Of a stretch of 64,000 nt of DNA, positions 2,393 to 13,117 are shown in pieces; position 1 is the stretch's first letter; each line of letters begins with the position of its first letter. Origin of the DNA: Anaerolineae bacterium (GTDB lineage: Bacteria > Chloroflexota > Anaerolineae > Aggregatilineales > JAFGMM01); the NCBI GenBank assembly GCA_027494055.1, contig JAOSJO010000001.1:372001-436000 (forward strand). The letters are read 5' to 3'. The translations under genes and the position numbers were made by a program. The notes beneath the pieces are model-generated. The model did not search any database, was not told the DNA's origin, and was given only the letters and a program-made list of their open reading frames with translations.

Positions 2393-2965
2393 GTGAGTGC
2401 GCTGACCAAAACACCACGCAGAGGCTTGTGGGTCCTTGGTGGCCTGGCCGCCGTGCTCCTGGTCGTGCTCGGCGCTGCGCTGCTCCTCCGCCCGACGCCT
2501 TCCGAGGCGCAGGATGCGCAGCCCTTCGTCTTCAACCACCAGATTCACGTCCAGGAGAACGGCATCTCGTGCGTTTATTGCCACAGCGGCGTGATGCGTT
2601 CGCCGACGGCCGGCATCCCCAGTATGCAGCTCTGCGCCGGCTGCCACGCGCCGGCCGACGGTTCGCTGGGCCGCCCCGGCGGCGGGATCGACAACGGCTC
2701 GGAAGCGCTGGCGACGCTGCGCACGTACATCGCCAACGGCACGGCGATCTTGTGGGAGCGCATCACGTTCCTGCCGCGCTACGCCTACTTTGCGCACCAC
2801 GTGCACATCAAAGCCGGCGCCAGTTGTGAGACCTGCCACGGCAACGTGGGCGAGATGGAGGCGGTCCACCAGGTCGAGAAGATGAACATGGGCTGGTGCC
2901 TCAGTTGCCACCAACGCGAACCCAACGCGCTTGAACTGATGGATTGCTCCATCTGCCATCGTTAG
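2393..2965 (+). CDS. actA: ActA, pentahaem cytochrome c of alternative complex III
   Basis: A 190-residue protein with one N-terminal membrane/signal segment (residues about 10-35) and five CxxCH haem-binding motifs: CVYCH, CAGCH, CETCH, CLSCH and CSICH. This matches ActA, the periplasm-facing multihaem subunit of alternative complex III (menaquinol:electron-carrier oxidoreductase). It starts with GTG at 2393 behind an AAGGAGAGA ribosome site and is the first gene of the act operon. Confidence 0.9.
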   Translation: MSALTKTPRRGLWVLGGLAAVLLVVLGAALLLRPTPSEAQDAQPFVFNHQIHVQENGISCVYCHSGVMRSPTAGIPSMQLCAGCHAPADGSLGRPGGGIDNGSEALATLRTYIANGTAILWERITFLPRYAYFAHHVHIKAGASCETCHGNVGEMEAVHQVEKMNMGWCLSCHQREPNALELMDCSICHR

Positions 2966-2974
2966 GAGACAGAT

Positions 2975-5158
2975 ATGACGCGAGGGATCAGTCGTCGTGA
3001 CTTCATGCGCATCGGCGTCGCCGGCGCGGCGACCGCCGTGCTCGCCGGCTGCCAGCAGACCCGGCGCTATGTCGAGCTTGAGCCTTACGTGATCCCCCCG
3101 GAAGAGGCCGTGGCCGGCACGCCGACGTGGTACGCCAGCACGTGCCGCCAGTGCCCCGCCGGGTGCGGCATCATCGTGCGCACGATGAACGGGCGCGCGG
3201 TGAAGATCGAGGGAACCCGGAGCACCCGCTCAACCGGGGCGGGCTGTGCGCGCGCGGGCAGTCGGGGCTGCAACTGCTCTATAACCCCGACCGGCTGCAA
3301 GGCCCGGCGCAACAGGCGCGGCAGGGGAGCCGTGATTACGCGCCGATCTATTGGGAAGACGCCATCCCCATGCTGGCGGACCGGCTCAGCGAGGCCGGCG
3401 ACGCCGTGGCCGTGTGGGGCGGCGCGACCATGTCCGGCCACCTGTACGACCTGCTCCGCCGCTTCACCGAGGCGGTGGGCGCGCCCGCGCCGGTGATCTA
3501 TGACCTGTACACCGCCATGCACGGCTACCACGCGCTGCAGAGCGCCAGCCGCGCGCTGTTCGACGCCGACGCCATGCCCGCGTACCGTCTGGGTGAGGCC
3601 GATGTCGTGTTCTCGTTCGGCGCGGACTTCCTCGGCACGGGCACGTCGGCGGTGCGCTACGGCGTCGAGTACGGCAGGTTCCGCGATCAGGGCCTGGGCA
3701 AGCGCGGCTATCTGGTCCAGTTCGAGTCGCGCATGTCCATCACCGGGGCCAGCGCCGACCGCTGGGTTCCGGTCCAGCCCACCACCGAGACGCTGGTCGC
3801 GGGGGCCATCGCGCGCCTCATCGCCGATGAGGGCTTTGGCCCGGCGGACCGGGTCGAGCGGGCGCGCACCCTGGCTCCAGAGGTCGATATCGCCGCCGCT
3901 GCCGCTGCGTGCGAGCTGTCGGTCGAGGACCTGGCGCAACTGGCGCAGGTCTTCGCCAATGCCGAAAGCCCCTGGCGATTCCAGGCGGGGCGCTGGCGGG
4001 GCACGCGTTCGGCGTCGAGGCGATCATGGCCGTGCAAGCCCTGAACGTGATCGCGGGCGCGGCGGCGATGAGCCTGGCGGCGGACGCGCCGCACGCGGCG
4101 TTGGTGAAGCCCCCGGTCTCCCCGCTCGCCGATGTCGTCGCATTGATCGACCGCATGGCCGCCGGGGAGGTGAAGGCGCTGCTGGTCTGTGGGGCCAACC
4201 CCGCCTACGACCTGCCTCCCGCCACCGGCTTTGTCGATGCGGTGCAGAACGTCCCGTTCGTGGCGACCTTCACGCCGCTGATCGACGAGACGTCGGTATG
4301 GGCGCACCTTGTCCTGCCCACGCGCACGTACCTTGAGTCGTGGGGCTACGAGGTCACCGCGCCCGGCTTCGAGACCGCCATCGTCGGCAGCCAGCAGCCG
4401 GTCGTCGTGCCGATGTACGACGCGCGCTCCACCGCCGACGTTGTCTTGGAGGTCTCCCGGTCGATCCCGCCGGCCGCTGCCACGCTCCCTGGGCGGACGA
4501 GGTCGCTTTCCTGAAGGAAACGCTCACGCAACTGCCCGCCGGTGCGTTCGGCGGCGACGACCCCGACGTGCAATGGGCGCGCATTTTGCAGCACGGCGGC
4601 TGGTGGATGGCGGAGCCTTCCGCGCCGCCCGCCCCCGAAGCCACCGCCCCGGAGCCGGTCGCGGTCCAAAGGCCGGCGTTCCAGGGCGACACCAGCATGA
4701 TGCCCTATCACCTGCACCTGTACACGCCGGTGCTCCTGGGCGACGGGAGCGGTGCGAGCCAGCCCTGGTTGCAGGGTTCCCCCGACCCGATGAGCACGGT
4801 CGCGTGGCAGACCTGGGTCGAGCTGAACCCCGTGACGGCGGAAGCGCTCGGCGTATCGGATGGCGATGTGGTGCAGGTCGCGTCGGTCTATGGCAGCATC
4901 GAAGCGCCGGTCTTCGTCTACCCGGCCATCCGCCCGGACACAGTCGCCATCCCGCTCGGCCAGGGGCACAGCGAACTGGGCCGCTACGCCGAGAGGCGCG
5001 GCGCCAACGCGGTGCAACTGCTCGGCCCGGTCATCGAGGACGCGGGGAACGCGCTGACCTTCTCGACCGTGCGCGTCTCCGTCACGCCCACCGGGGAGCA
5101 CAAGCCGCTGGCGGTCTACGGGAATCCCGAAGGCTCGATGGTCGAGCCGCCATTCTGA
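2975..5158 (+). CDS. actB: ActB catalytic-like (molybdopterin-oxidoreductase-type) subunit, with three frameshifts
   Basis: A Tat-type N-terminus (SRRDFMRIGVAG) is followed by a CxxCxxxC...LCARGQ [4Fe-4S]-type motif and a molybdopterin-oxidoreductase-like body. The frame changes three times: near 3211-3213 (G lost), 3969-3972 (C lost) and 4487-4489 (C lost). Restoring one base at each site gives a continuous protein of about 728 residues ending MVEPPF. In most described ACIII the iron-sulfur domain is fused to this subunit; here a separate ORF at 5257 carries it. The family is held not to bind molybdenum. The frameshifts look like homopolymer errors, not decay. Confidence 0.87.
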
Positions 5159-5176
5159 TACACCGTCGTGGAAGTG

Positions 5177-5203
5177 TAGGGGGAAGGTCATGCCTTGCCC
5201 CTC
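5177..5203. repeat. palindromic repeat, family C, between the two actB genes
   Basis: AGGGGGAAGGTCATGCCTTG followed by CCCCT, an imperfect copy of the perfect GGGGCAAGGCATGCCTTG/CCCC palindrome at 9463. It sits in the 98-nt gap between the catalytic-like and iron-sulfur ActB ORFs. Confidence 0.65.
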
Positions 5204-5256
5204 CAGACACGAGCGACAAGACACGCAAAGGGTACAACGATCTGGGGAGTAAGCCG

Positions 5257-5975
5257 ATGAGCGAAAACGAAACCGATGGCCGCCACTGGACGATGGTCAT
5301 TGACAGCGACAAATGCACCGGCTGCGGCGCGTGTGTGGTCGCGTGCCATGCGGAGAACAACGTGCCCATCGCGGACGAGGGCCAGGTGATTCAGGGCCGG
5401 GCGAACCACTGGATTCGCATCGAGCGCTACTGGGAGGGACGTACCCGAACGTGAAGGCGCGTTTTCTCCCGGTGATGTGCCAGCAGTGCGGCGAAGCGCC
5501 CTGCGAGCCGGTGTGCCCGGTGTACGCCACGTACCACAGCACCGAGGAGAACCTGAACGTCATGGTCTACGCCCGGTGCGTGGGCACGCGCTACTGCGCC
5601 AACAACTGCCCCTACCGGGTCCGGTCCTTCAACTTCTACGAGCCGGAGTTCGAGGGCGCGCTTGTGGAACAGCTCAACCCTGACGTGACGGTGCGCAGCG
5701 CGGGCGTGATGGAGAAGTGCACCTTCTGCATCCAGCGCATCCGCCGCGCCGACCAGAAGGCCACCGTCGAGGGGCGCGCGCTGGAGGACGGCGAAGTGCA
5801 GCCGGCGTGCGCGCAGGCGTGCCCGCCCAAGGCCATCGTCTTTGGCGACGCCAGCGACCCCGAAAGCCAGGTCGCGAAGTTGATCGAGGGCAACGAGCGC
5901 CGATACCAACTGCTGCACAACCTCGGCACGAAGCCGGCAGTCTACTACCTGAAAGGCGGTGCGTCCAATGTCTGA
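5257..5975 (+). CDS. actB: ActB iron-sulfur subunit (4Fe-4S ferredoxin domains), with one frameshift
   Basis: Begins [10 protein letters not shown] and carries four cysteine clusters typical of DMSO-reductase-type electron-transfer subunits: [37 protein letters not shown] and CTFCIQRI...CAQACPP. The ORF track splits it because one G is missing at 5436-5438 (YWEG then TYPNVKA); repaired length is about 239 residues. It corresponds to the C-terminal B2 domain of ActB and probably carries the electron path from quinol to ActA. The stop overlaps the actC start by 8 nt. Confidence 0.88.
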
Positions 5976-7423
5976 GACGAGCATCGAACCGCGCCCCTGG
6001 ACAAGCGAGCCGGCCACGACGCCTGACCTGGAGCAGCAGGTCGAGCACGCGCGCGACGCGCACCTGATGCTCGACCCGCGCCCGCTGGAGGAGAGCAACC
6101 AGCAGGCGATTGCCAGTATGCAGCGCACCAGCCGCCTCACGTGGGCGGTGGTCGTCGTGCTGCTTGGCGGCGTGGGCATGGCGGCGGCGAGCTGGCTGAT
6201 CCAGATTGCGACCGGCATCGGCGTCACCGGCCTCAACAACACGATCTTCTGGGGCATCTACATCGTCAACCTGGTCTACTTCATCGGCATCGGCCACGCC
6301 GGCACGTTCATCTCGGCGGCCTTCCGCGTGCTCAAGTTCGAGACGCGGCGGCCCATCGCGCGCGCCGCCGAGACGGTGACGCTGTTCGCGCTCGCGGCGG
6401 CGGCCCTCTTCCCCTTCATCCACCTGGGCCGCATGTGGAAGGCCTACTGGATGATCCCCTATCCCAACCAGCGGCAACTGTGGCCCAACCCGCAGTCGGC
6501 GCTGTTGTGGGACGCCACGGCGATCCTCACTTACGTGATCGGGAGCATCCTCTTCATCTACCTGAGCCTCATCCCAGACCTTGCCATGCTGCGCGAGCGC
6601 ACCACCGGCTGGCGACGCGTCCTGTACCGGGCGCTGGCGCTCGGGTGGCGCGGCACAGACCGCGAGTGGTCGATCCAGGAAAGCGCTGCGAACATCTTCG
6701 CGTATGCCATCATCCCGGTGATGTTCTCGGTGCATACCATCGTGTCGTGGGACTTCGCCATGACGATCCAGCCCGGCTGGCACAGCACGATCTTCGGGCC
6801 GTTCTTCATCGTCGGCGCCCTGTTCTCCGGCGTCGCGGCGGTCATCATGGTGATGGCGGTGTTGCAGCGCTTCATGAAGCTGGCCTATTTCATCCGGGCG
6901 GAGCACTTCGACGCGATGGCGAAGTTCCTTCTGGTGATGAGCTTCGCGTGGATCTACTTCTACTTCGCCGAGGTCCTCACGAACTGGTACGGCAACCTGC
7001 CGCCGGAGATGGAAATCCTCGACCTGCTCATGCATGGCGCGGCGGCCCCGTTCTGGTTCCTGATGCTGTTCTGCAACATCGTCGTGCCCGTCGGCCTGCT
7101 GTGGATGCGGCGGGTGCGCCGCTCGCCGGGGGTGCTGTTCGTCATCGCGATTTTCGTGCAGATCGGGATGTACCTGGAGCGCTACATCATCGTCGGCGTG
7201 ATGCTTGGCCGCCCGGAGATGCCGTTCCGCTGGAGCAGCTACACGCCCGCGCTGGAGCTGATCATCGCGGTGGGCGCGTTCGCCTTCGTCGCGTCGTTCT
7301 ACCTGGATCTTCACCCGCGTCTTCCCCATCATCCCGCTCTGGGAGGTCGCCGAGGGGCAGTTGTACAATGGGCTGCGCAGGGTGGGCCGGGCGTTCACGA
7401 GCGCCAAGTCAGACCCGCACTAG
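5968..7423 (+). CDS. actC: ActC, NrfD-like integral membrane quinol-oxidising subunit, with one frameshift
   Basis: After an N-terminal extension of about 55 residues, the protein shows about ten hydrophobic segments of the NrfD/PsrC family, including [20 protein letters not shown] and the [10 protein letters not shown] region. ActC is the menaquinol-binding membrane subunit of ACIII. An extra G near 7305 shifts the frame; reading on in the +1 frame gives the expected tail ([17 protein letters not shown]) and a TAG at 7421. I start at ATG 5968; the ORF track's GTG 5959 is possible. Repaired length is about 484 residues. Confidence 0.9.
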
Positions 7424-7450
7424 GGCCCGCACCAGGGAGAGAGTTGAGAT

Positions 7451-8481
7451 ATGGCCGAATACCAGGTACTCGGGCTTTTTGAAGACGTCGATCCCGCCGC
7501 CAATGCGATTGAGGCGCTGCGCAAACTCGGCGTATCTGACCGGAAGATCAGCGTGTTGTCGGCCTTTCCCTACACGCCGAAGATGCTTGGCCGCAAACAC
7601 AGCCACCACCGCCTGATGCCGATTGCGCTCACCGGCGCGCTGATGGGCTTCATGGGGGCCATCTTCCTGACGGTGATCATGCCGCAGCTCTACCCCATCG
7701 TCGTGGGCGGGCGCGACATCGTGAACATCCCCCCTCGCTCATCATCATGTTCGAGCTGACCATGCTCGGCGTGATCGTGGGGACCTTCATCGGCTTTCTG
7801 ATCGAGGGCGGGTTCCCGTATTTCGGCCCCAAGCTCTACGACAAGCGCATCGCCGAGGGGTACATCGGCGTGCTTGCGCAGGTCAACGACGACGTGCTGT
7901 TTGCGCGTACGAAGCAATCGCTCACCGACCACGGCGCGCAGCACCTGCAGGAGATGGAAGTCCGCCGCTACCGCGACCCGCGCCTGGCGATCCTGGCGGG
8001 GCTGCTCGTGGTGGGCGGCGCGTTTGCCCTGTTCACGCTCCTCATCTTCTACGATGTGATCTCGCTGCCGTGGTGGCCGGACCAGATGAAGGAGTCGCTC
8101 GTGGTGGCGCCGCTGCAAGGGCCGCGCTACCCCGCGCCGGAGGGGAGCGTCCCGATACAGGGCGTGGCGGTCGTCAACAACCAGCCGCTGACCGCGCCCC
8201 TCCCCGGGACCGAGGACTCGATCCAGCGCGGCGAGGTGCTATTCAGCCTGCACTGCGCGCACTGCCACATGATCGCGGGCGAGGAACTCACGCCCGTGGG
8301 CGCAAAGTTCGCCGTCCCGCCGCCGGCCATGACCAGCGACCGCGTGGCCGGGCGCACGGCGGAGAGCATCTTCGTGACCATCACCCAGGGGCGGGGCCTG
8401 ATGCTCCCGCTCGCAGAGAACCTGTACCCTGACGAGCGCTGGGACGTGGCGAACTACGTCCTGAGCCTGAACGCGGATTGA
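7451..8481 (+). CDS. actD: fused ActD (DUF3341) - ActE (monohaem cytochrome c) protein, with one frameshift
   Basis: The N-terminal half (MAEYQVLGLFEDVDPAANAI) is a DUF3341/ActD domain with two hydrophobic segments. A C run at 7729-7734 has lost one base, so the track splits the gene. The second part continues through the DUF3341 end and a third hydrophobic segment (ILAGLLVVGGAFALF) into an ActE-like cytochrome c domain with one CAHCH motif and a C-terminal YVLSLNAD helix. ActD and ActE are normally separate proteins. The repaired fusion is about 343 residues. No ActF follows. Confidence 0.85.
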
Positions 8482-8514
8482 CTGGATTGCTGACTGACCA
8501 ACCGGAGGTTAGTG

Positions 8515-9300
8515 GTGTCAAGACGAATCTGGATTAGCCTGTCGCTCGCCCTCTTCTTCGGGCTGCTGTTGAGCGCGTGCGGGCCGGGTATCGCCCCGAA
8601 CACGTCCATCCCGACGCTGGCCCCGCGTGAAGCGACCTCCGCGCCCGCCGAGGCCCCGGCGACCGTCGAAGGCGCGGAGGCGACCAGCACGCCGGAGGCG
8701 ACGACCGGCGACGTGACGGAGGTCGCCGCTGTCAGCCTGGAAGAGGCGGCGGCGGTATACGCGGCGAGCTGCCAGGGGTGCCACGGCGCGGACGGGCAGA
8801 ATGGCACCGTCGGGCCGAGCCTGGCCGCCTCCGCGGAGGTCGCGGCGCTGAGCGACGATGAACTCCGCGACATCGTGCACAACGGGGTTGAAGGCACCGC
8901 AATGCGCGCCTTTGGCGACGAGCTTTCTGACGCGGAGATCGAGGGCCTGATCGACCTCATCCGAAGCTGGGAGGGTGGCGAGGGTGGCGCTGCCGCCGAG
9001 ACGCCGGAAGCGACCGCCGAACCCACCACCGCGCCGGAGGCCGCCGCAGAAGCCGACCTCGAAGCCGGGCTGAGCGTCTACGCGGCGAACTGCCAGGCCT
9101 GTCACGGCGCGGAGGGCCAGAACGCCGTCGTCGGGCCGGACCTGTTCGCGAACCCGGACATTGCCGCGATGGACCATGACGCGATCCGCGACATTGTCGT
9201 CAACGGCGTCGAGGGCACGGCGATGCAGGCCTTTGGCGACCGGCTCTCCGATGAGGAGATCGACAATGTGGTCGCGCTGATCGAAAGCTGGCAGGAGTAG
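8515..9300 (+). CDS. dihaem cytochrome c lipoprotein with duplicated domain
   Basis: The N-terminal signal ends in a lipobox (LLLSAC), so the protein is probably membrane-anchored outside the cell membrane. A Thr/Ala/Pro/Glu-rich linker follows, then two similar class I cytochrome c domains, each with one haem site (CQGCH and CQACH) and the shared ending GVEGTAM.AFGD.LSD.EI. The halves look like a recent tandem duplication. I prefer GTG 8515, 6 nt after GGAGG, over GTG 8512. As the last gene of the act operon it is a good candidate electron acceptor for ACIII. Confidence 0.88.
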   Translation: MSRRIWISLSLALFFGLLLSACGPGIAPNTSIPTLAPREATSAPAEAPATVEGAEATSTPEATTGDVTEVAAVSLEEAAAVYAASCQGCHGADGQNGTVGPSLAASAEVAALSDDELRDIVHNGVEGTAMRAFGDELSDAEIEGLIDLIRSWEGGEGGAAAETPEATAEPTTAPEAAAEADLEAGLSVYAANCQACHGAEGQNAVVGPDLFANPDIAAMDHDAIRDIVVNGVEGTAMQAFGDRLSDEEIDNVVALIESWQE

Positions 9301-9810: not shown

Positions 9811-10755
9811 TCACACGCGCGTGACGGCGTCGCTGGCCGCATCCAGCGCGGCGACCTCCTCATCGGTCAGCGCCCAGCCGAGCGCGCCCGCGTTCTCCTC
9901 TGCCTGGCGCGCGTCGCGCACGCCGGGGATGGGCAGCGTGCCCTTGCGGATGGTCCAGTTGAGCGCCACCTGCGCCGGCGTCCTACCGCCGTGCGCCGCG
10001 CCAAGCGCGCGCATGACCTCCATGAGGGGGCCGAGGCGCGCCAACTGCGTGGCGTACCGCCGCCCCCGGATGCCGGGCGGCGGCTGGTCAGGCGTGTACT
10101 TGCCGGTGAGCAGCCCCTGGCGCAGGGGGCTGTAGGCCAGCAGGCGCACGCCCAATTCCTGGCACGCGCTGAGCAGCCCGTTGCGCTCCGGGGTGCGCTC
10201 CAGCAGGCTGTACTCGACTTGGTTAGCGGCCAGGTGCACCCCGCGCCGGGCGAGCACGGCGAACGCGCGCCGCATCTGGCTGGCGCTGTAGTTGGAAACG
10301 CCGACCTGCCGCGCCAGCCCCTGCTCGACCGCGTCGGCGAGCGCCTCCGCCCAGGTATCGATGGGCACGGGCGGGACCGGCCAGTGAATCTGGTACAGCT
10401 CGACCTGGTTCAGCCCCAGGCGGCGCAGGCTGCCCTGTAGCGCGTTGATGAGCCGGCGTCGGGTCAGCCGCCAGGGCAGGGGCATGAACTTGGTGGCAAC
10501 GTACACCGACGCGCCGCTTTCGCGGATGAACTGGCCGAGCAGCTTCTCCGCGCGGCCCCAGCCGTACATCTCCGCCGTGTCGATGAGGCGGATGCCGTGG
10601 GCCAGGCTCACGTCGAACGCCGCGCGCGAGTCCGCGTCGGAGTACACGCCGCGCCCCGCCCAGAAGGTCCGGTCGCCCCAGGCCCAGTTGCCGATGCCGA
10701 GTTCGATCCCGGCGAGAGAAACCGGCCCGCCCTCGCCCCTCTCCGCGCCCGCCAT
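9811..10755 (-). CDS. aldo/keto reductase
   Basis: A 314-residue AKR-fold oxidoreductase. The catalytic tetrad residues are visible: Asp and Tyr in DTAEMYGWG, Lys in VATKFMPL and His in QIHWPVP. The NADP-binding end (KGTLPIPGVRDARQAEENAGA) is typical. Its ATG overlaps the stop of the upstream dehydrogenase gene (TGATG), so the two are translationally coupled. The track's 644-residue ORF is an artefact of a frameshift in that neighbour. The substrate cannot be told from the sequence. Confidence 0.9.
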   Translation of the reverse strand: MAGAERGEGGPVSLAGIELGIGNWAWGDRTFWAGRGVYSDADSRAAFDVSLAHGIRLIDTAEMYGWGRAEKLLGQFIRESGASVYVATKFMPLPWRLTRRRLINALQGSLRRLGLNQVELYQIHWPVPPVPIDTWAEALADAVEQGLARQVGVSNYSASQMRRAFAVLARRGVHLAANQVEYSLLERTPERNGLLSACQELGVRLLAYSPLRQGLLTGKYTPDQPPPGIRGRRYATQLARLGPLMEVMRALGAAHGGRTPAQVALNWTIRKGTLPIPGVRDARQAEENAGALGWALTDEEVAALDAASDAVTRV

Positions 10756-11712
10756 CACTGCGCCATCGCCGCATCCAGGCTGTCGATTGCGTCGCGGAGG
10801 AGCTGCGCGCTCGCGCCGAGCGCCGCACACTCCTCGTCGTCGAGGTCCACTGGGAACGTGTCCACAACGCCGGACCGGTCGATCAGACGCGGCAGCGAGA
10901 GCGTCACGTCCAGTACGCCCTGCACGTCGGGCGTGGGCGTGCACACCGCCATCACGGCGCGCTCGTCGCGCAGGATGACGTCCACGAGGGTCGCGGTCAC
11001 GCTGCCGATGCCGTAGTAGGTCGCGCCCTTGCCGGCGATGATGGCCCGCGCCGCCGCGCCGGATTTCGGCTTGCAGTTCGGCCTGCACCTGCTTATCCAT
11101 CTTGATGCCCCGCTGCTGGCAATACGTGACCAGCGGCACGCCACCCACCGTGGTCGAGGACCACGCGAGCACCTGCGAGTCGCCGTGCTCGCCGACGACA
11201 TAGCCGTTGACGTGCTTGGCGTCCACCCCCAGGTACCGCCCCAGCGCGGCCCGGAAGCGCGCCGTGTCGAGGCCGGTGCCGGTGCCGACGACGCGGTGCG
11301 ACGGGACCCCGTGCTCGGCGGCGTACCGCGCGGTGAGGTGGGTCATCACGTCAACCGGGTTGCTGACCACAACCAGGATCGCGTCGGGGGCGTTGGCGAC
11401 GATGGCGGGCACCATCTCCTGGAAGATGCGCGCGTTCGCCTCCATGAGCACCAGGCGGCTCTGGTCGGCCTTGCGCGGCAGGCCGGCGGTGATCACCACC
11501 ACATCGCTGCCGACCAGGTCAGGGTAGTCGCCGGCGTCGATCCGCAGCGGGTTCGGCGTGAACGAGACCGCGTGCTGGATGTCGGCGGCTTCGGCCTGCG
11601 CGCGCGCCGCGATGATGTCCACCAGCATGATCTCGCGCCCGATGCCGCGCATTGCCATCGCGTAGGCGGTCGCTGAGCCGACCATCCCGGCACCTACGAT
11701 ACCGACTTTCAT
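10755..11712 (-). CDS. L-lactate/malate dehydrogenase family protein, malate-type loop, with one frameshift
   Basis: An NAD-dependent 2-hydroxyacid dehydrogenase of the LDH/MDH family: GXGXXG in VGIVGAGMVGSA, Asp in SNPVDVMTH, proton-relay GEHGDS. The substrate loop reads AGLPRKADQSR, with Arg at the position that is Gln in LDH and Arg in MDH (residue 102 in LDH numbering), so malate/oxaloacetate is the likelier substrate. One extra G near 11060 splits it; repaired length is about 318 residues. It is upstream of, and coupled to, the aldo/keto reductase. Confidence 0.85.
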
Positions 11713-11741
11713 CACACTTCTCCTCGTCGTGACAGTTAGGC

Positions 11742-11770
11742 ACAATGACGGTCATTATGATGACCATTGT
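11742..11770 (-). promoter_or_regulatory. operator-like dyad upstream of the malate-type dehydrogenase
   Basis: GGTCAT-TATG-ATGACC forms a perfect 6-bp inverted repeat, framed by ACAATG and CATTGT, about 30 nt before the start codon. No regulator gene is adjacent, so the binding protein is unknown. Confidence 0.35.
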
Positions 11771-11830
11771 CTACTCTCCTGTCAAGCGCGGCGACAGGAT
11801 GTTCCAAGATAGGGCAACTTCAGGGCAAGA

Positions 11831-11917
11831 ACACTCACCTAATCCTCTCCACGAGTGGAGAGGGGACTTAGGATTATCACCCCCTCTCCATTTATGGAGA
11901 GGGGGCGGGGGGTGAGG
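11831..11917. repeat. MITE-like double-hairpin element
   Basis: Two hairpins in tandem (CCTCTCCAC-GA-GTGGAGAGG and CCCCTCTCCA-TTTA-TGGAGAGGGG) are bounded by short inverted ends CTCACC/GGTGAG. It fills the space between the two dehydrogenase paralogues. No transposase is present. Confidence 0.6.
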
Positions 11918-12014
11918 TAAAAACGGGCAGAACACTGGGGACCAAGGTGCCCCCAAAGATGGAATGCACCCCGCGACAGGAGCGGTATGCTGCTTCCCTG
12001 TGGCCGGGCGCGCG

Positions 12015-12965
12015 TCACACACCGGCAGCCTCCAGTTCGTCGATGGCGGCGCGGATCACCTGCGCGCTGGCGCGGAGCAGCGCGTGCTCGCGCGCGCTCA
12101 GCAGCAGCGGCAGGCGCGAGATCACGCCCGCGCCGCCCACCAGGCTCGGCAGCGAGACGGTGACATCGCGCACGCCCTCCAACTCGCTGACGGGCGTGCA
12201 GACGGTCAGCACCGAGCGCTGGTCGCCCAGGATGACCTCCACGATGCGCGCCAGCGCGCTGCCGATGCCGTAGTAGGTCGCGCCTTTGCCCTCGATGATC
12301 GTACAGGCGGCGTTGCGCACCTGGTCGTCGATGTTGCGCTGCATCGCCTCATCGACGCACAACTCCTCCTGCGTGCAGAAGTCCTCCAGCGGCACCGCGC
12401 CGACCGTCACAAGCGACCAGGTCAGCACCTCGGAGTCGCCGTGCTCGCCGACGACGTAGCCGTGGATGTGCTTGGGGTCCACGCCCATGTGGAGGCCCAG
12501 CAGCGCGCGGAAACGCGCCGTGTCCAGCGTCGTGCCGGAGCCAATCACCCGGCTGGAGGGCACGCCGTGCTCGGCGGCGTAGCGCGCCGCGAGGTGCGTC
12601 ATGATGTCTACGGGATTGGTCGCCACGATGAGGACCGCGTCGGGCGCGTGCGCGAGCACCTGCGGCACGACGTCGCGGAAGACGGCGGCGTTCCGGCTCA
12701 GCAGTTGCAGGCGCGTCTCGCCGGGGCGCTGGCCCACCCCCGCGCCGATGATGACGACGCGGCTGCCGGCGAGGCGCTCGTAGCCCCCGGCGGTGATCTG
12801 CAGCGGCTCGGCGAACGGCACCGCGTGCAGGAGGTCGGCGGCCTCGGCGCGCGACCGCTTCTCGTTCAGGTCCACGAGCACGATTTCGCGCCCGATGCCG
12901 CGCATCACCAGCGCGTAGGCCGCCGTCGATCCCACAAGGCCGCTGCCGACAATACCAACTTTCAT
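12015..12965 (-). CDS. ldh: L-lactate dehydrogenase
   Basis: A 316-residue intact LDH/MDH-family enzyme. The substrate loop [11 protein letters not shown] has the lactate-type Gln. Also present are [12 protein letters not shown], Asp in TNPVDIMTH and the catalytic His in [10 protein letters not shown]. The start at 12965 (MKVGIVGSG) has a GAGAGGAAAC ribosome site; the longer 355-residue track ORF has no family support. It is a tandem paralogue of the gene at 10755, which has an Arg in the same loop position. It interconverts pyruvate and L-lactate with NAD(H). Confidence 0.9.
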
Positions 12966-13117
12966 GGTCTGTTTCCTCTCTTTTACGCGCGCACAAACCC
13001 CACCCGCGAGATGAATGACGCCCCGATTATACCCCGCCCGGCGGCGGCGCAGCCTTGCACGGGGCGGGGTTTCGGTCCTCAACAGGTCAGGAATGGCGCA
13101 ACCTGCCGTTGCGCGTC

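Follow-up and report, generated by a model that had tools for sequence, protein, structure and literature searches.

A probable inherited fusion of ActD and ActE in an alternative complex III-like operon of one Chloroflexota order

Introduction

An ActD gene that runs on into a cytochrome c sequence raises the question whether two subunits of alternative complex III (ACIII) have become one polypeptide chain, and in what type of complex this chain would function. The ACIII of Rhodothermus marinus has six conserved subunits, ActA to ActF (PMC5928083). In the stretch of DNA analysed here (the window, 64,000 nucleotides from an Anaerolineae bacterium of the Chloroflexota), an act-type operon is found at positions 2393–9300 on the + strand. 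Within it, positions 7451–8481 code for ActD (PF11821), followed by a third membrane helix and a one-haem cytochrome c domain, which the initial annotation took to be a fusion of ActD and ActE. Several genes of the operon are broken by single-base slips, which looks like a sign of an unpolished long-read assembly, and the fused gene itself is broken once.

Results

The act-type operon and the type of complex

The first gene of the operon (2393–2965, + strand as are all genes of the operon described here) codes for a 190 aa ActA-like pentahaem cytochrome c with five CXXCH motifs (PF14522, E-value = 1.3e-13), and a five-haem ActA is present at the same place in related loci. The ActB1-like subunit (2975–5158) is spread over several frames due to indels but is recognised by intact orthologues in loci L073–L078 and by motif comparison; the motif CX2CX3CX27C is kept. 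An ActB2-like iron-sulphur subunit follows at 5257–5975 with a slip near 5430 (PF13247, E-value = 3.3e-11 for 5313–5972, and orthologues). ActC, a member of the NrfD family, is found at 5959–7423 with a slip near 7300 (PF03916, E-value = 2.7e-23). The intact ActC orthologue at L073 in G400, a genome of the same family as the window genome, matches the solved chain 6lod_C with an E-value of 4.4e-92. ActA, ActB1, ActB2, ActC, ActD and ActE, the subunits by which an ACIII is recognised, are all present.

ActF, the second NrfD-type subunit, is absent from the window operon and from the related fused operons, and a query of the window genome with ActF gives ActC as the sole match. This genome also has another NrfD protein, frame-broken, at positions 332000–344000 of contig C22 (L125). 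It is flanked by multihaem cytochromes with 13, 8 and 9 CXXCH motifs and represents a second NrfD-containing system.

The CX2CX3CX27C iron-sulphur motif of ActB1 is kept in the window and in the loci of families f93 and f3, and is absent in canonical loci. ActB1 thus appears to carry an extra iron-sulphur cluster motif, unlike the cofactor-free canonical B1 domain. In iron-oxidising bacteria, ActB1 of ACIII-like clusters is known to have the same motif (PMC4643136). In G400 the motif is lost from ActB1 (L073:12015–14276) with the first Cys alone left, though G400 belongs to the same family as the window genome. Where ArrA has its molybdenum-ligand Cys, the alignment shows a Tyr in G400 and the same reading in the window, and molybdenum is therefore predicted to be unlikely in ActB1.

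No match to a bc1-type cytochrome b is found in the window genome; its one strong COX1 is situated near a frame that contains a CuA-type motif. This is consistent with the complex serving as complex III, by putative transfer of electrons from quinol to cytochrome c. As the genome is 86% complete, these absences are provisional. The assignment to ACIII holds for the presence of ActA, B1, B2, C, D and E, but has to be narrowed by the lack of ActF and by an ActB1 of the iron-sulphur-motif type; these two features make ACIII-like, ActF-less complex the best name.

It is improbable that the operon codes for a Qrc-type menaquinone reductase instead of a quinol:cytochrome c oxidoreductase. QrcB, QrcC and QrcA are the best NCBIfam matches of ActB1, ActB2 and ActA, but all matches are below the curated cut-offs, the best being that of B1; the bit scores and cut-offs for QrcA to QrcD are 79.5/180, 315/440 (orthologue), 185/400 and 43/570. 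In addition, the C subunit, as represented by the G400 orthologue, fits ActC far better than QrcD (E-value = 2.6e-11 for the latter), and the operon also codes for ActD, ActE and a lipoprotein cytochrome. Qrc is not known to include ActD or ActE. The operon is read below as that of an ACIII-like complex.

The fused gene

ActD is encoded in two frames. Frame 2 (7451–7734) gives ActD residues 1–94, with the N-terminal domain and helix 1 (PF11821, E-value = 5.2e-12, profile positions 2–90), and shares 64% identity with G400 over 95 aa. The frame slip, of one base, is situated in a run of six C residues at 7729–7734, where relatives are unbroken. Frame 1 then provides helix 2 and the ActD C-terminal domain (7735–7953). 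When tested as the segment 7747–8478, it yields the remaining ActD sequence (PF11821, E-value = 2.5e-07, profile positions 96–169), and the whole PF11821 model is covered by the two pieces with 46.2 and 30.9 bits, compared with a gathering score of 25.7. Helix 2 contains the conserved FELT glutamate; the FE pair is invariant in the alignment of fused proteins (A1) and aligns with FELTIL of 6f0k_D.

The third membrane helix, at 7990–8046, is a strong hydrophobic segment (Kyte-Doolittle peak 2.59, ILAGLLVVGGAFALFTLLI) and corresponds to the N-terminal helix of unfused ActE. A linker and the ActE-like monohaem cytochrome c domain occupy 8047–8481, with a single CAHCH at 8254–8268 (PF13442, E-value = 2.6e-08; PF00034, E-value = 1.1e-06) and the stop codon at 8479–8481. 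A Met (M319) that is invariant in alignment A1 is likely the second haem ligand, which would make this a His/Met haem.

Frame 1 displays no stop from ActD through to the cytochrome c domain, and GC3 is 0.91–0.95 across the joint and throughout the fused gene. The initial reading, that ActD continues through a third membrane segment into a monohaem cytochrome c, is thus borne out by PF11821, the hydropathy and the CAHCH domain. Frame analysis confirms the frameshift at the C6 run, upstream of the joint, and the joint itself lies in one clean frame, as it does in relatives. The window copy is broken by the slip and the whole window protein is deduced from relatives; a structure model of the piece 7747–8478 is poor (mean pLDDT 55.7).

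Identity of the C-terminal domain

A profile built from the window piece together with 11 intact fused proteins was searched against the PDB. The first four ranks are taken by the four solved ActE chains: 6f0k_E (E-value = 1.5e-17), 6lod_E (2.3e-13), 8k9e_E (2.9e-13) and 6btm_E (6.6e-13), and the c6, c552 and bc1 cytochromes rank below them. The same profile also matches ActD (6f0k_D, E-value = 7.2e-07; 6btm_D, 7.5e-06), and with the G400 sequence alone the top two matches are 6f0k_E and 6f0k_D. Matches to both solved subunits indicate that the protein is ActD plus ActE.

Single-sequence family scans give general cytochrome c families only, as would be expected of a generic cytochrome c captured from elsewhere. 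That origin is nevertheless very unlikely, since all four solved ActE chains outrank the other solved cytochromes in the profile search and since unfused neighbours code for an aligning protein right after actD, at the place of actE. The C-terminal part can thus be designated ActE, as first proposed.

Membrane anchoring and the downstream lipoprotein cytochrome

ActE of R. marinus is of the lipid-anchored (lipobox) type. In the solved complexes, both ends of ActD are cytoplasmic (PMC5928083), and a third helix is therefore needed to place a haem domain on the outer face. Helix 3 would carry the chain out of the cytoplasm, with the haem on the outer face. No lipobox is found on the ActE domain of the fused proteins, where the domain follows the membrane helix, and the anchor of the nearest unfused ActE is likewise an N-terminal membrane helix.

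Directly after the fused gene, at 8512–9300 (+ strand), is a separate lipoprotein cytochrome c with the lipobox LLSACG and two haem domains (two Cytochrome_CBB3 domains, E-value = 9.2e-34). In those fused loci whose downstream region was examined, the gene directly next codes for a lipoprotein cytochrome c that carries 1, 2, 3 or 4 haem motifs, and a DLTPIPTL stretch after the lipobox is usually common to them. The number of motifs varies from one to four across L073, L074, L075, L076, L077, L079, L131, L132 and L133, as if domains had been duplicated or lost repeatedly. Lipid anchoring may have moved to, or stayed with, this second cytochrome, which is likely the next electron carrier. The proposal that the fusion replaces the lipid anchor of ActE therefore stands in so far as the ActE domain is on a helix and is without a lipobox, but the nearest unfused ActE is already held by a helix and a lipoprotein cytochrome follows in the operon.

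An in-frame ATG at 7954, after GCAGGAG and directly ahead of helix 3, could serve as an internal start and yield a separate helix-anchored ActE alongside the fusion. There is little chance of this, as the GGAG abuts the ATG without a spacer and other fused proteins do not have a Met at this position. A single ActD-ActE chain is the preferred reading.

The joint in related genomes

On the − strand, positions 9811–11745 carry a 644 aa frame in which a frame slip has falsely merged a malate/lactate dehydrogenase with an aldo/keto reductase. Two similar L-lactate/malate dehydrogenase genes are found close together in this region (9811–13082, − strand), one within the 644 aa frame and the other at 12015–13082. 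The false merger is a caution for other apparent fusions in the same assembly; slips can mimic a fusion and independent copies of the ActD joint are needed.

The same joint is present in one frame at 17 loci in 16 other genomes, and 16 of these loci are complete. In G400 the whole fused protein is uninterrupted (345 aa; L073:8510–9544) and is about 50% identical to the window sequence over residues 94–342. The remaining 16 loci are from 15 genomes of family f93 in the same order; 14 genomes have complete copies and one is cut by a contig end. Fused proteins are about 342–357 aa long, with CXXCH near residue 270 in f93. Relatives align through helix 3 and the linker with few gaps. The recurrence of this one-frame joint in relatives shows that the joint is real and inherited. 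Many slips in the operon and the clear false merger at 9811–11745 would fit an assembly indel that placed two adjacent genes in one frame, but with 16 other genomes having the joint in one frame and few gaps over helix 3 and linker, this can be dismissed with near certainty.

Spread of the fusion in Chloroflexota

A search for the DUF3341-cytochrome c architecture in Chloroflexota, suggested by the initial annotation, thus finds it in 16 other genomes that belong to two families of one order. ActD is present in 26 of the 154 genomes of this order. All 17 ActD-bearing genomes of families f1 and f93 have the fusion (the window genome being counted through its slip), and the nine ActD genomes in the other families have frames of 177–217 aa. 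Within one order, ActD is either of a canonical type (E-values 1e-44 to 1e-62; L092–L098) or of a divergent type (E-values about 1e-20; L100, L107); the divergent type takes in the fused forms.

In a phylum sample, 123 of 400 genomes show ActD, and most of the frames are <250 aa, too short for both domains. At 30 reference loci the frame stops 171–174 codons past the ActD start. Longer ActD frames, up to 611 aa, were considered as fusions and rejected, as none of those fetched as loci contains a CXXCH; the fetched set covers the long frames other than five, all from genus g47 (G069, G165, G181, G287, G315). Two other members of g47 (L083, L084) are unfused. The long frames at L085 and L086 are weak, glycine-rich ActD look-alikes. 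A fusion search of genome contigs gave 20 loci, but the cases with both domains that were examined are adjacent separate genes joined by tblastn and are not fusions.

Origin of the fusion

Among the closest relatives in the class that lack the fusion, L089, L091 and L081 have a four-base overlap (ATGA) between actD and actE, and ATGA is likewise found at the actD end in L082. Unfused ActE starts with a transmembrane helix that aligns to helix 3 of the fusion. The identity to fusion residues 176–345 is 32–40%, the alignment beginning at residue 176–195. The position of the joint thus matches the actD end and the N-terminal ActE helix in unfused relatives. If the frame shifted slightly at the ATGA overlap, the two genes would be read as one, and the anchor helix of ActE would turn into helix 3. 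In a tree of ActD plus ActE, two changes fit best, but one change is also compatible, i.e. one or two origins.

Discussion

The locus very probably represents a genuine, inherited ActD-ActE fusion in a predicted ACIII-like menaquinol:cytochrome c oxidoreductase of one Chloroflexota order. In the proposed path, electrons would pass from menaquinol at ActC to the iron-sulphur subunit, the ActA haems and the fused ActE haem. The lipoprotein cytochrome of the next gene would then take them up and pass them to a CuA-type cytochrome c oxidase, which is encoded at another place in the genome. The topology of ActD and the role of ActE are taken from R. marinus ACIII (PMC5928083). One ActE haem would be fixed per ActD and tied into the membrane part, and the chemistry need not change.

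The fusion shows that a single chain, with a fixed one-to-one ratio, can do the work of ActD and the ActE cytochrome, and represents a naturally occurring construct whose terminal haem is unable to leave the complex. As ActF is also missing, it offers a simple system to ask what quinol oxidation and ion pumping require of ACIII. More tentatively, and with some doubt, there may be a lineage of minimal ACIII-like complexes that have one NrfD-type subunit, an extra ActB1 iron-sulphur cluster and an exit cytochrome covalently attached to ActD, the proposed coupler of quinol oxidation and ion transport; the exit cytochrome would hand electrons to a lipoprotein cytochrome of variable haem number.

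Comparison with known systems

The statement that ActD and ActE are separate in described complexes is not correct. The genome paper on Melioribacter roseus of 2013 describes Mros0042, which has three helices and one CXXCH, as a presumed ActD-ActE fusion (PMC3534657), and the fusion architecture is thus not new. By description, Mros0042 is similar to the protein reported here in having ActD with three predicted helices, a single C-terminal CXXCH and a place in an act operon; that operon also has a separate ActE cytochrome, as a second cytochrome beside the fusion. It differs in its phylum-level lineage, in the presence of ActF and in a four-haem ActA. An act cluster in MBNT15 is listed as ActABCD with a four-haem ActE-like protein (PMC9386147). 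The literature searched has no description of an ActF-less operon in which the fusion is the fixed state of two families within a Chloroflexota order. The initial annotation was therefore correct in essence, but mistaken about priority and incomplete with regard to the anchor.

Qrc (QrcABCD) also combines a multihaem A subunit, a molybdopterin-like B, an iron-sulphur C and an NrfD-type D, and is the best NCBIfam match for B1 and B2. However, scores here are under the cut-offs and the membrane subunit is ActC-like. The actAB1B2CDEF clusters of iron oxidisers share the split actB and an ActB1 with CX2CX3CX27C, but have separate actD and actE genes as well as actF (PMC4643136). The canonical ACIII of Rhodothermus marinus (6F0K), Flavobacterium johnsoniae (6BTM) and Roseiflexus castenholzii (6LOD) share ActA, ActB1/B2 homologues, ActC, ActD and ActE with the operon reported here, which differs in having ActD fused to ActE, two genes for ActB, no ActF and a four-cysteine iron-sulphur motif in ActB1.
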